In this document: positions 5,988-47,433 of the stretch, piece after piece
Numbering within the stretch: the first letter of the stretch is position 1
Layout of the letters: each line of letters opens with the position of its first letter
From: Paenibacillus polygoni
GTDB taxonomy: Bacteria; Bacillota; Bacilli; Paenibacillales; Paenibacillaceae
Length of the DNA stretch: 47,500 bases
Assembly: GCF_030263935.1 (NCBI RefSeq)
Contig: NZ_CP127162.1
Coordinates: 147,501 to 195,000, forward strand
Reading direction: 5' to 3'
Notes under the pieces: generated by a model
Seen by the model: the letters and a program-made list of their open reading frames with translations, nothing else
Database searches by the model: none
What the model was told of the DNA's origin: nothing
Program-made: the position numbers and the translations under genes

Positions 5988-7208
5988 ATGACCAAACCAA
6001 AAGGTTTTGAAAAGCCAGCCGGTGTACGTGATTACCTTCCTCATGTCGTAGATAAGTTGAGACGGATCGAACATAGAGTGCTGGAATGTATGAGCAGCTG
6101 GGGATATCGGCAGATTATTACCCCTTCCATGGAATATTACGATACCGTAGGTGTGGCTAGTTCAACGTCCGATCAAAAACTGTTTAAGTTGTTAAACAAC
6201 CGGGGAACGACACTCGTGCTCCGTTCCGATATGACAGCACCGATTGCGAGAGTAGTCTCTTCTATGCTTAAGGATGAGAAGTTGCCTCTACGGCTTTCGT
6301 ATCATGCGAATGTATTCCGGGCGATTGAAGAAGAAGCAGGACGTGAAGCAGAATTCTTTCAAACCGGTGTAGAACTGGTCGGCGATGACTCACCCGAAGC
6401 AGACGCTGAGGTTGTAGCTCTAGCGATCAGTTCCCTACAGGCGGCTGGAGTGACGTCATTTAAAATAGCGATGGGTCATGTGGGATTCTTGAATGGTTTA
6501 CTCGGTGAGATTATCCCAGAAGAAGTAGATTTGCAAGAAGAATTAAAGGCAGTACTACTGAAGCGTGACTATGTAGGTTACCGTGAGAAAATTGAAGATT
6601 TGTCATTATCATCAGAGCAAAAAGAGCGACTTGAGACTATATTACGTCTTCGGGGCGGAAAAGAAATAGGTGAGCGTGCTGAATCATTGGTCTCAAGTGA
6701 TGAAGCACGAAATTCAGTGCAGCATCTGTGCGCAGTGTGGGAAGTACTCGAAGCTTATGGAGTATCAGAACATGTACTGATCGATTTAACGATGCTTGGC
6801 GATTTTTCATACTACACAGGAATGACGTTTGAGGGATACGCATCAGAACTTGGATTTCCGGTATGCAGCGGGGGCAGGTATGACAAGTTGCTAAAACAGT
6901 TTGGGAAAGACATTCCCGCGACGGGTTTTGCAATAAAGACAAACCGAATCATTGATGGAGTGCAAGGAATTCGAGCAGAGCAGCCGCTTCCTGTACTTAT
7001 TGAATATACGAAGGAACACCGAGTAGAGGCTTTATCTCAAGCATTGCAGCTAAGAACGGAAGGACGGACCGTCGTCACTAGACTCATGCAAAGAGTAGAG
7101 GATCGTTATCACCAGGGTGTAGATACAAATGAGCAGGGAAGTAACTGTGCGGTGTCTACCCTTCAAGGGAAATACGAAAAAATATATACGTACAGCAGTC
7201 CGTTATAG
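5988..7208 (+). CDS. hisZ: ATP phosphoribosyltransferase regulatory subunit
   Basis: HisZ is a catalytically inactive paralogue of histidyl-tRNA synthetase. It binds short-form HisG to make the active, histidine-inhibited first enzyme of histidine synthesis. The 406-residue protein shows the class II synthetase fold: PAGVRDYLP near the N-terminus, motif 2-like LVLRSDMTAPIARV (residues about 76-90), and a glycine-rich FPVCSGGRYDKLL near 290-300 resembling motif 3. It lacks the full anticodon-binding domain of HisS. AGAGGTGA precedes the ATG. It is the first gene of the his operon, and its presence matches the short HisG encoded next. Confidence 0.95.
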   Translation: MTKPKGFEKPAGVRDYLPHVVDKLRRIEHRVLECMSSWGYRQIITPSMEYYDTVGVASSTSDQKLFKLLNNRGTTLVLRSDMTAPIARVVSSMLKDEKLPLRLSYHANVFRAIEEEAGREAEFFQTGVELVGDDSPEADAEVVALAISSLQAAGVTSFKIAMGHVGFLNGLLGEIIPEEVDLQEELKAVLLKRDYVGYREKIEDLSLSSEQKERLETILRLRGGKEIGERAESLVSSDEARNSVQHLCAVWEVLEAYGVSEHVLIDLTMLGDFSYYTGMTFEGYASELGFPVCSGGRYDKLLKQFGKDIPATGFAIKTNRIIDGVQGIRAEQPLPVLIEYTKEHRVEALSQALQLRTEGRTVVTRLMQRVEDRYHQGVDTNEQGSNCAVSTLQGKYEKIYTYSSPL

Positions 7209-9468: not shown

Positions 9469-9540
9469 AACGTATACAGTACGACATACAGTACGACATA
9501 CAGTACGACATACAGTAAGACAAACAGCAAGACAGCAAAT
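9469..9540 (+). repeat. 12-bp tandem repeat between hisD and hisB
   Basis: Three identical copies of ACGACATACAGT (9481-9516) are flanked by diverged copies at 9469-9480, 9517-9528 and 9529-9540, about six units in all. No plus-strand gene covers the array. The unit has no strong internal dyad. Confidence 0.9.
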
Positions 9541-42616: not shown

Positions 42617-42635
42617 AAGAGGAGTGAGCGTGCTG

Positions 42636-43547
42636 ATGAGAAGTGGGAATGAATTAACAAAAAAGATACCCCTGGCTGCTTTTAGTGGATCGTTGATAGA
42701 TTATCCTTTGCGTGAAGCAATGGAGATTACAGCAGAGCTTGGATTTGATGGGATTGAAATTGCCTGCCGCTCTCCTCACCTAGGACTAGATACACCGCTT
42801 GAAGAGGTAAAAGAGTTAGGAGATTATGCAGCGGGGCTTGGACTTTGCATCCCGGCACTAGCAGGATACACGGGTCACTTTTCCAGTCTAAATGATGAAG
42901 AATGTGAAACTGCGCTGGAGGAATTTCGAAAATTGCTTCGGATTGCTGAGGTATTGTCTGTCCCATGCATTCGGGTTTTTCCAGGAGGACCTAATGCATT
43001 CTTGGCAGAGGATCAGCACTATGAGCGAGCAGCTCACTATTTACGGAAATGTATCATAGAAGCGGAAGAGTCCGGAGTTCAGCTGCTGATTGAAATTCAC
43101 AATCAGACCTTAGTGGAAGATGCAGATAGTGCGCTCCGGCTGCTAGAGCTAACCGGTGGATCAGGGCTTGGCTTTATCCATGACGCAGGCAATATGTATA
43201 TTTCGGGTGTGGACTATGGGGAAGCGTCCGTGCGTAAGCTTGGAAGCCATCTGAGCCATATCCATATAAAAGATGAGAAACGGATTGCAATAGAAGGTGC
43301 AGAAGGGTCTTTTACCAATCGGACTCGGCATGGCATAGAGGCATTTATGCAGTGCAGGCTTGGGGAAGGTTCTGTAGATCACCGGCCCATGCTGGCTGCT
43401 GTTCTTATGAGCGGGTATGCCGGCTGGATGACACTGGAGTGCGCGGCCCCTTTTCCACCGAAAGAGCGGCTGGCTTATGATTTGGCTGAGATTGAAAGAC
43501 AGCTTGAAGCTGTGAGGAAGGTCAAGAGAAGCAGTCTGCTTGAATAG
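42636..43547 (+). CDS. Sugar phosphate isomerase/epimerase family protein
   Basis: A TIM-barrel protein of the xylose-isomerase-like (AP endonuclease 2) superfamily, about 303 residues. Metal-site residues appear in the expected places: ELGFDGIEIAC near the N-terminus, IEIHNQT in the middle, FIHDAGNMY near 181, and HLSHIHIKDEKR near 205. Relatives act on inosose, tagaturonate or ketoses; the substrate here is unknown. AGAGGAG at 42618-42624 could serve GTG 42630 or ATG 42636; the frame also has GTG 42624. It is transcribed with the transporter and the two oxidoreductases. A repeat array follows its stop. Confidence 0.82.
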   Translation: MRSGNELTKKIPLAAFSGSLIDYPLREAMEITAELGFDGIEIACRSPHLGLDTPLEEVKELGDYAAGLGLCIPALAGYTGHFSSLNDEECETALEEFRKLLRIAEVLSVPCIRVFPGGPNAFLAEDQHYERAAHYLRKCIIEAEESGVQLLIEIHNQTLVEDADSALRLLELTGGSGLGFIHDAGNMYISGVDYGEASVRKLGSHLSHIHIKDEKRIAIEGAEGSFTNRTRHGIEAFMQCRLGEGSVDHRPMLAAVLMSGYAGWMTLECAAPFPPKERLAYDLAEIERQLEAVRKVKRSSLLE

Positions 43548-43560
43548 TTGATATCAGAGG

Positions 43561-43644
43561 ATGGCGAACCTATGCACGATGAAGGTAGAGGAATCAGAGG
43601 ATGGCGAACCCATGCATGATGAAGGTAGGAGAATCAGAGGATGA
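43561..43644 (+). CDS. Possible 27-residue mini-ORF in the repeat array (copy A)
   Basis: It starts 13 bp after the isomerase stop. The peptide begins MANLCTMKVEESEDGEP and ends GRRIRG, spanning just over two repeat units. Its TGA overlaps the ATG of copy B as ATGA. A short AGAGG lies upstream but too close to be a good site. No family is recognised; expression is unproven. Confidence 0.25.
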   Translation: MANLCTMKVEESEDGEPMHDEGRRIRG

Positions 43645-43724
43645 TGAACCTATACATGATAAAGGTAGAAGAATCAGAAGATGGCGAACCTATTCACGAT
43701 GAAGATAGAAGAATCGGAGGATGA
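43641..43724 (+). CDS. Possible 27-residue mini-ORF in the repeat array (copy B)
   Basis: The peptide begins MMNLYMIKVEESEDGEP and ends DRRIGG; it is identical to copy A at 20 of 27 positions. Its TGA overlaps the ATG of copy C as ATGA. A purine run GGTAGGAGA lies about eight bases before the ATG and could act as ribosome-binding site. Confidence 0.25.
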   Translation: MMNLYMIKVEESEDGEPIHDEDRRIGG

Positions 43725-43888
43725 CGAACCTGTGTACGATGAAGGTAGAGAAATCAGAGGATGACGAACCTTGTACGATGAAGGTAGAGGAATCAGAGGA
43801 TGGCGAACCCATGCATGATGAAGGTAGGAGAATCAGAGAATGGTGGGCCCGTGCAGATGCATGTAGAGAAGGGGGGATTGTTCCATGA
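43721..43888 (+). CDS. Possible 55-residue mini-ORF in the repeat array (copy C)
   Basis: It begins MTNLCTMKVEKSEDDEP, repeats the CTMKVEESEDGEPMHDEGRR stretch because a one-base deletion in unit 6 keeps the frame open, and ends in EGGIVP. Its TGA overlaps the ATG of the downstream oxidoreductase as ATGA. It may serve only to carry ribosomes onto that gene. Confidence 0.25.
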   Translation: MTNLCTMKVEKSEDDEPCTMKVEESEDGEPMHDEGRRIREWWARADACREGGIVP

Positions 43889-44934
43889 CGTTTGGCAGCA
43901 AAAGATCAGAAACAGAAGGGAAGGGTGACGGAGCCTTTGCGATAGCCGGCTGTCAGCATCCCCATATTTCTATTTTTATAGAGGAAATGCAGGCAGTAGG
44001 GCATGCTTGTGCTGGGATCTATGATGAAGGCGACCAAACGCTGGCAAGGAAGATAGCAGAGCAGTACCAGCTTCCTTTTGCGGACAGTGTGACAGAACTA
44101 CTGGCGAATGAAGACGTAAAGTTTATCGGTAGTTCTGCTATCAATAATGAGAAGATTCAGATTGCCGATGCTTGTGAGCAGTATGGAAAACATCTGATGC
44201 TGGATAAGCCTGCTGTGGTAGACCGGGCTGGTCTGGATCAGCTGGAGCAGATCATAGGCAGGGGGAAGATTCAGATCGGCATGCTGTTAACGGAGCGATA
44301 CCGGCCGGCTGTATATACGCTGTATGATCTCATTCGTAAAGATGAGCTTGGACAAGTGATGAGTATTACGATGCGAAAACCACATCGATTACGGCCTGAT
44401 ACGAGGCCTAATTGGCATTTTAGTAAGGAGCAGTCCGGGGGGATTATTGTTGACCTGCTCATACATGATTTTGATCTTCTCAGATGGCTGACAGGACAGG
44501 AAGTAAGCGAAGTGAGCGGTAGAATGGGGAAACAGATCTTGCCGGAGTACTCGGAGTTTTATGATACAGCCGCGATACAAGTAGAACTCAGTCAAGGAAC
44601 AATAGCCCAGCTGTACGCTGACTGGCATGCACCTGAGAAATGCTGGACATGGGGCGATGGTCGTATTTTTGTAACGGGAACAAAAGGAAGTGCGGAGATT
44701 CGGCTTGCCGGAGACCCTGCTGTTTCGACTGACGAAGAATTGCTGCTTATGATGACGCATGAACAAGCGCTTGTGGAAGTTCCACTTAGAGCACCGGCAG
44801 CATCAGTGACGGAGGATTTCTTGAGACGTGTCCGAGGAGAATCACATGATTTCACCCACCTAGATTTGCTTGAAGCGACGAAAGTAACTTTGCTTGCCGA
44901 TGAGCAGGCCAAACGAGTGAAGTTCTTAAGATGA
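43885..44934 (+). CDS. Gfo/Idh/MocA-family oxidoreductase, first copy
   Basis: A 349-residue NAD(P)-dependent dehydrogenase-like protein. The N-terminal nucleotide-binding fold is atypical: where most members have GxGxxG it reads AIAGCQHPHIS (about 18-28), and the usual EKP is LDKPAV (about 110). The C-terminal substrate domain has HFSKEQSGGIIVDLLIHDFDLLRWL, the common GG...HDxD pattern with a catalytic-type histidine. GAAGGGGGG precedes the ATG. Its start overlaps a mini-ORF in the repeat array. Paired with the next gene, it probably oxidises or epimerises the imported sugar. Confidence 0.82.
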   Translation: MTFGSKRSETEGKGDGAFAIAGCQHPHISIFIEEMQAVGHACAGIYDEGDQTLARKIAEQYQLPFADSVTELLANEDVKFIGSSAINNEKIQIADACEQYGKHLMLDKPAVVDRAGLDQLEQIIGRGKIQIGMLLTERYRPAVYTLYDLIRKDELGQVMSITMRKPHRLRPDTRPNWHFSKEQSGGIIVDLLIHDFDLLRWLTGQEVSEVSGRMGKQILPEYSEFYDTAAIQVELSQGTIAQLYADWHAPEKCWTWGDGRIFVTGTKGSAEIRLAGDPAVSTDEELLLMMTHEQALVEVPLRAPAASVTEDFLRRVRGESHDFTHLDLLEATKVTLLADEQAKRVKFLR

Positions 44935-46115: not shown

Positions 46116-46328
46116 GGGGTGTAAATGTAGCAAGGAGGAGAAAGGAAGACAAATGATGAGGTTGCATAAATGGATTTCAATGCTTCAAAAAAGCTTGTTT
46201 GGGGTACAATGCATATAGAGGTTTGTTACCTTGATTTTGGGTCTGTATATTTGTTACAATAAAGACCGGAATAGAGTTAGCTAGCAATACCGTCCAGTGA
46301 ATAAATGATCCTGAGAAGAGGTGAGAAC

Positions 46329-47072: not shown

Positions 47073-47433
47073 GGGGGCGTTTATGGATTCGACGGGGATA
47101 GTTCGAGCATGGGTAGCGGGTAGTGGGGACGCGTCCGCTTCATCAACGCTAAAGCCAATTAAACGGCAAACAACAAAACAACTACGCTTTCGCAGCTTAA
47201 TAACCTGTGAGCGTGCTCTTACTCTGTATCGCCCATGTACCGGGATAAGGGCTCAACTTTAGTGGGATACGCTGTCTAGTCTCCGCCTGCGGCTAGCTGA
47301 AGAAGACAATCAGGCTGACCTAAAGAGAATCCGGTAACGGGGAGTCTCTAGGGTGACATTAAATCTGTTACTACACCCGTAGAAGCTTATGTGGCGTTAT
47401 CTTCGGACAGGGGTTCGACTCCCCTCGCCTCCA
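47073..47433 (+). ncRNA. ssrA: Transfer-messenger RNA
   Basis: The 5' GGGGGCG pairs with CGCCTCC near the 3' end (47426-47432), with G3-U70, the alanine identity pair. GGGGTTCGACTCCCC forms the T arm. The 3' CCA is not encoded. The resume codon GGC is at 47165, and the reading frame to TAA-TAA (47198) gives GKQQNNYAFAA, so the tag with its leading alanine is AGKQQNNYAFAA. Most tags end LAA; this ends FAA. It works with SmpB; RNase R is encoded 11 kb upstream. Confidence 0.96.

Follow-up and report, generated by a model that had tools for sequence, protein, structure and literature searches.

Between a sugar isomerase-like gene and the oxidoreductase gene that follows it, the window (the whole stretch of 47,500 nucleotides analysed here) carries a run of tandem repeats whose start and stop codons join into a chain of small reading frames that ends on the oxidoreductase start codon. 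Is this chain a device that governs translation of the downstream enzyme, or a by-product of the way in which the repeat arose? A sequence-only reading had offered a translational relay, a peptide-coding repeat and a neutral minisatellite. Our analysis favours the last of these and mostly fails to support a regulatory role. The array is likely to be a young, near-neutral minisatellite within an operon, made of copies of the leader of the gene downstream.

The host genome is a single contig of 4.94 Mb, with closest kin in the named collection in Paenibacillus. The gap between the isomerase and the oxidoreductase measures 337 nt and holds seven head-to-tail units followed by a diverged eighth copy:

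42624..43547, forward strand: upstream gene, TIM-barrel sugar isomerase/epimerase-like (Pfam PF01261), with a GTG start
43553..43592, forward strand: repeat unit 1, 40 bp (TRF and alignment)
43593..43632, forward strand: repeat unit 2, 40 bp, identical to unit 7
43633..43672, forward strand: repeat unit 3, 40 bp, with GGATGA
43673..43712, forward strand: repeat unit 4, 40 bp
43713..43752, forward strand: repeat unit 5, 40 bp, with GGATGA
43753..43791, forward strand: repeat unit 6, 39 bp, with GGATGA
43792..43831, forward strand: repeat unit 7, 40 bp, identical to unit 2
43832..43884, forward strand: eighth unit, diverged; this is the oxidoreductase's native leader and includes its strong Shine-Dalgarno (SD) run
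43885..44934, forward strand: downstream gene, GFO/IDH/MocA-family oxidoreductase

The array, spanning 43553-43884, is far beyond chance as a repeat. TRF places it at 43553-43843 (period 40, 7.3 copies, 85% matches) with a score of 400, the highest in the window; head-to-tail copies of a unit of roughly 10-100 bp are what defines a minisatellite or VNTR. TRF and the alignment of units bear out the earlier description of a gap filled by about eight 40-bp units. A 64-nt stretch (43576..43639, forward strand) recurs without a mismatch 199 nt downstream, at 43775-43838. Set against the 85% matches overall, this run and the identity of units 2 and 7 point to recent turnover inside the array.

Comparison with relatives indicates where the unit came from. 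The oxidoreductase genes of the window and its close relatives are 90-94% identical, and the gap before them measures 57 nt in P. gallinarum, 98 nt in both J45TS6 and An7 and 337 nt in the window. At this one locus P. gallinarum has a single copy of the repeat, J45TS6 and An7 have two each and the window has eight, so that copy number differs among relatives as in minisatellites and VNTRs, here between species, with one strain of the host species. TRF, at a score of at least 30, lists the two copies of An7 and not those of J45TS6, whose number was read from the alignment. The single-copy gap of P. gallinarum aligns to one unit; the match begins at the unit's 5' end, takes in the ATG and reaches the point where the SD run begins, and this leader already has the unit's ATG. 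With the unit consensus the match scores 37 and with the An7 unit 41, while the best of 2000 mononucleotide shuffles score 22 and 24. The run that ends each unit is most simply read as what decay has left of a copied oxidoreductase SD.

At seven more distant loci, Q4541 among them, no array was seen by eye, and TRF found none in their gaps. In Q4541, which serves as outgroup, 13 nt separate the isomerase stop from a GTG start (read by eye), and it is from this short gap that the direction of array growth is inferred. The oxidoreductase tree, with 11 rows (the window and 10 of 11 loci, a Planctomycetota locus of 23% identity, L042, having been dropped), leaves the order of the four close relatives as an open fork, and the single copy of P. 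gallinarum could therefore be a loss. As a separate observation, in P. gallinarum (L034) the isomerase frame past its TAG is open and, by eye, in frame with the oxidoreductase, and the ATG frames that open at +25 and +31 continue into that gene.

We propose that about 40 nt of the oxidoreductase's own leader, comprising the ATG-bearing stretch and the 5' part of the SD run, underwent tandem duplication, and that slippage or unequal exchange then enlarged the array in the host lineage. The last copy would have kept a working SD and would alone set translation of the oxidoreductase. The inner copies would have decayed, nearly all by transitions; between units 1-7 and the An7 unit, 27 of 28 substitutions are transitions when common changes are counted every time. 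The chain of frames would then follow from the content of the unit, its period and the second codon of the oxidoreductase.

That chain consists of three mini-ORFs, and their lengths and ATGA junctions are as the sequence-only reading had given them:

43561..43644, forward strand: mini-ORF A, 27 codons, its TGA within the ATGA at 43641
43641..43724, forward strand: mini-ORF B, 27 codons, its TGA within the ATGA at 43721
43721..43888, forward strand: mini-ORF C, 55 codons, its TGA within the ATGA of the oxidoreductase start at 43885

The first ATG lies 13 nt past the isomerase TAG. All eight units retain their head ATG, each unit holds one to three ATGA words (13 in the whole gap), and 17 of the 23 ATGs in the gap, among them the inner ATG at 43572, lead by ATGA steps to the oxidoreductase. 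The chain arises because the units carry ATGs and ATGA words and because the period is 1 mod 3, which brings the frame from one unit's ATG onto the ATG two units on in stop register. The final junction is due to the second codon of the oxidoreductase, ACG, which makes the start read ATGA in the window and equally in An7, J45TS6 and P. gallinarum.

A chain of this kind is unlikely in random DNA, where shuffling the gap preserved one in 2 of 5000 trials, and it is not unlikely in arrays of such units. Rearranging the real units keeps the chain from the first unit to the oxidoreductase in 1080 of 2520 distinct orders. Random draws of 1-12 units chain in 42-84% of cases (53-84% for even numbers, 42-46% for odd). 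Uniform arrays of 1-9 copies always chain when built from unit 1, 2 or 7, never when built from unit 6, and only at even unit numbers when built from unit 3, 4 or 5, so that in other arrays it could matter whether the number of units is even or odd. Unit 6 lacks one base, and this deletion had been credited with keeping the third frame open to its junction; a chain does not depend on it, since the array without unit 6 still chains. When uniform arrays were mutated neutrally, a chain from some ATG of unit 1 was found in 12-15% with one deletion and in 9.5-42.5% without; the exact chain described above, from the first head ATG, appeared in 7-10% and 0.2-4.1%, respectively. These controls used 5 changes per unit plus one deletion, heavier than the mean of about 4 positions by which the real units differ from the An7 unit, or 2 to 5 changes per unit and no deletion. 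A mild excess of chaining over neutral drift is possible, for a chain chosen post hoc. The succession of start/stop-coupled frames probably came about as a by-product, because the sequence that was copied already contained a start codon and a partial ribosome-binding site.

Ribosomes might still make use of the chain. In a passive relay of the MIRU type, those leaving the isomerase would restart 13 nt on at ORF A and pass through B and C to the oxidoreductase, and coupling would be kept although the gap has 337 nt and not 57. We regard this as the chief alternative but as unlikely, even though the chain is intact, outlasts most changes of unit number (below) and has a precedent in MIRUs, repeats whose ORF, according to the accessible part of a review (PMC12548453), enters into coupling with the host gene at a spacing of -4 nt. 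An ATG at +14, that is, 13 nt past the isomerase stop, occurs in the window and in the three close relatives, and in An7 one ATG frame and one TTG frame end on the ATGA of the oxidoreductase. However, the frame from the +14 ATG, which in the window runs 27 codons to an ATGA, stops after 8 codons in J45TS6 and P. gallinarum; in An7 it extends for 41 codons and stops 38 nt into the oxidoreductase. The gaps of J45TS6 and P. gallinarum contain no ATG frame that ends on the oxidoreductase ATGA, and this weakens the case for a functional relay. Relatives that break the ATGA junctions, which the sequence-only reading had named as a sign against it, thus occur, but only among those with one or two units. 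Some chain is in any case expected in about 10-43% of neutrally mutated arrays.

Predicted SD strengths weaken the relay further. The stretch scored for the oxidoreductase (43867..43881, forward strand) gives a predicted duplex of -14.8 kcal/mol, and its counterparts in An7, J45TS6 and P. gallinarum give -11.9, -13.1 and -13.4 kcal/mol. With so strong a predicted SD of its own the oxidoreductase does not require a relay. The ribosome-binding-like run noted earlier in every unit is indeed present, but it is uneven, the head ATGs of the eight units having predicted duplexes from -2.6 to -8.8 kcal/mol. Among the mini-ORFs, the starts of A (-2.6 kcal/mol) and C (-2.9 kcal/mol) are weak and that of B scores -8.8 kcal/mol; the inner ATGs of units 1, 2 and 7 reach a fair -10.4 kcal/mol, against -9.2 kcal/mol for the first permease start. 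With such values, starts inside the array are not implausible. A more elaborate version seems to us rather improbable: a self-rephasing relay in which each unit of the duplicated leader brings ATGA junctions and starts in a further frame, so that ribosomes cross 337 nt (against 57 in the relative with one copy) mostly unhindered by the gain or loss of single units. If true, it would parallel MIRU coupling, with a repeat that is not mobile and arose at its own locus, and would allow an operon to tolerate growth of a minisatellite. A relay, if real, would show operons absorbing repeat growth without loss of translation.

The sequence-only reading had also suggested that unit number could switch downstream translation. 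In such a phase-variable switch a change in unit number would shift the frame and turn oxidoreductase translation on or off, an idea to which a period that is not a multiple of three, the variation in copy number among species and the dependence on even numbers seen in the uniform arrays and random draws all lend something. The real array, however, keeps its chain in silico after six of seven single-unit deletions and six of seven single-unit duplications (unit 7 being the exception in both), and the oxidoreductase, a distinct ORF, has an SD to itself; a switch is very improbable.

The array might instead act as DNA or RNA, as tandem regulator sites, as an internal promoter or as a spacer that alters mRNA decay or polarity. 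Eight near-identical sites within an operon gap would suit such a role, and the MIRU-bearing senX3-regX3 gap is said, in an excerpt of PMC4213456, to drive separate expression of regX3. Against this, nothing above chance was found for the array as RNA structure, Rfam family, promoter or terminator: the fold has a z of 0.17, with 50 of 100 shuffles folding at least as well, no Rfam match comes near its gathering score, and the array has one promoter-like site where 0.7 are expected and no terminator where 0.3 are. The close relatives, moreover, have only one or two copies. We give this explanation very little credence.

That the array encodes functional repeat peptides is scarcely credible: the likeness of A and B in 20 of 27 residues, which codon comparison confirms, and the silence of 5 of their 12 changed codons (of 27; 29% expected) lean towards coding in numbers too few to judge, but adjacent pairs of units look alike in any repeat array, successive units are read in different frames, Pfam has no match for A and C nor NCBIfam for C, so that no peptide family was found for A and C, and the DNA of the array was found in 2 of 394 family genomes.

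The minisatellite reading also fits the distribution of the unit. A search of the whole genome, which the sequence-only reading had proposed with many copies elsewhere in mind, returned the array and three low-score matches, so the repeat is at a single locus, which rules out a dispersed repeat family. The 2 of 394 family genomes include the host's own, with the two best first-look candidates per genome scored, a procedure that missed the single copy of P. gallinarum. A search of 75 genomes matched 9, again including the host's own, and the match in G008 spans only 23 nt and is counted as chance. A looser 21-nt pattern with at most two mismatches occurred in 32 of 99 genomes (its reversed control in none); outside G000 and G018 it appears as 1-3 isolated words in each genome, of which a single one has fewer than two mismatches, and we treat these words as chance or coding matches. 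A search for a plasmid source of the array gave no match. Outside the window, TRF was applied to 800 kb of the genome, sampled at even spacing as 40 pieces of 20 kb, and gave three arrays whose period is at least 36 and whose copy number is at least 3: one of 43 bp with 3.1 copies, one of 50 bp with 5.2 and one of 36 bp with 3.7. The window array is thus a member of a modest class and has the most copies among these four.

Some of these arrays, and other features of the window, deserve a record of their own. The 43-bp array (3.1 copies; G000:C1:4561138-4561267, L065:1138-1267, minus strand) consists of perfect hairpins (GTTTTGAC..GTCAAAAC) and lies directly 5' of the SD of a gene starting MAKGMREIKRQIKS, which we take to be atpG, for ATP synthase gamma. 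In the host's own genome the hairpin pattern is found at this locus alone, with 3 matches. A query with the locus matched 75 of 75 genus genomes, many in the coding part only; among the genus loci read (10 of the 12 returned), 9 of 10, the host's included, have 1 to 6 copies of the strict hairpin core. The locus L101 has no strict match and, by eye, two copies with CTTTGAC..GTCAAAG arms. Some arm changes keep pairing, also by eye. Rfam had no match for the 43-bp hairpin array, which may have a role in translation of the ATP synthase operon. The 50-bp array (5.2 copies; L073:7198-7455, G000:C1:1807198-1807455) begins at the 3' end of an ORF at 6684-7199, and the 600 nt past it have no listed ORF of at least 300 nt. 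Within the window, a 12-bp tandem array of 4.5-5.1 copies occupies 9474-9534, and a tmRNA gene with the tag GKQQNNYAFAA (47073-47433) lies downstream of a 167-aa ORF at 46305, presumably smpB.

As to known systems, the MIRU elements of mycobacteria, as senX3-regX3 intergenic repeats, were reportedly described by Supply et al. in 1997. Their geometry recurs here, the repeat-borne ORF C overlapping the downstream start by -4 nt at the ATGA of 43885. MIRUs likewise are repeats in an operon gap, and their units vary between strains: an excerpt of PMC4213456 gives the senX3-regX3 gap three 77-bp units in H37Rv, while in CDC1551 one of its three units has 53 bp and the other two have 77. The accessible part of PMC12548453 describes MIRUs as apparently mobile and present in many mycobacteria. 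In contrast, the window array has no dispersed copies at other loci of its genome, its unit is of 40 bp, and its mini-ORFs span several units. That it works like a MIRU is possible; that it is a MIRU is not supported, because it is confined to a single locus and is similar to the leader of the gene that it precedes.

Termination-reinitiation at ATGA overlaps, as a form of translational coupling, is treated in the accessible parts of PMC6728339, PMC10666635 and PMC12548453, and every junction of the array has the same -4 nt geometry. The upstream ORFs here differ in being unconserved frames born of a repeat, whose coupling is a prediction from sequence. In such arrays ATGA-coupled chains of mini-ORFs need not be adaptations, since they form readily when the unit contains start codons and its length is 1 mod 3.

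Among the titles listed in a literature search, none names this locus or a similar Paenibacillus array, which is no proof of absence in print. VNTR loci have been reported in the genus for typing of P. larvae (PMC5072193, in part), and with these and other bacterial minisatellites the array shares short tandem units and varying copy number, here between species. It differs in that its unit can be traced to the SD-bearing leader of a gene. With its relatives the array offers a natural series, at 1, 2, 2 and 8 copies, of a minisatellite whose unit is like the translation-initiation leader of the gene beside it.
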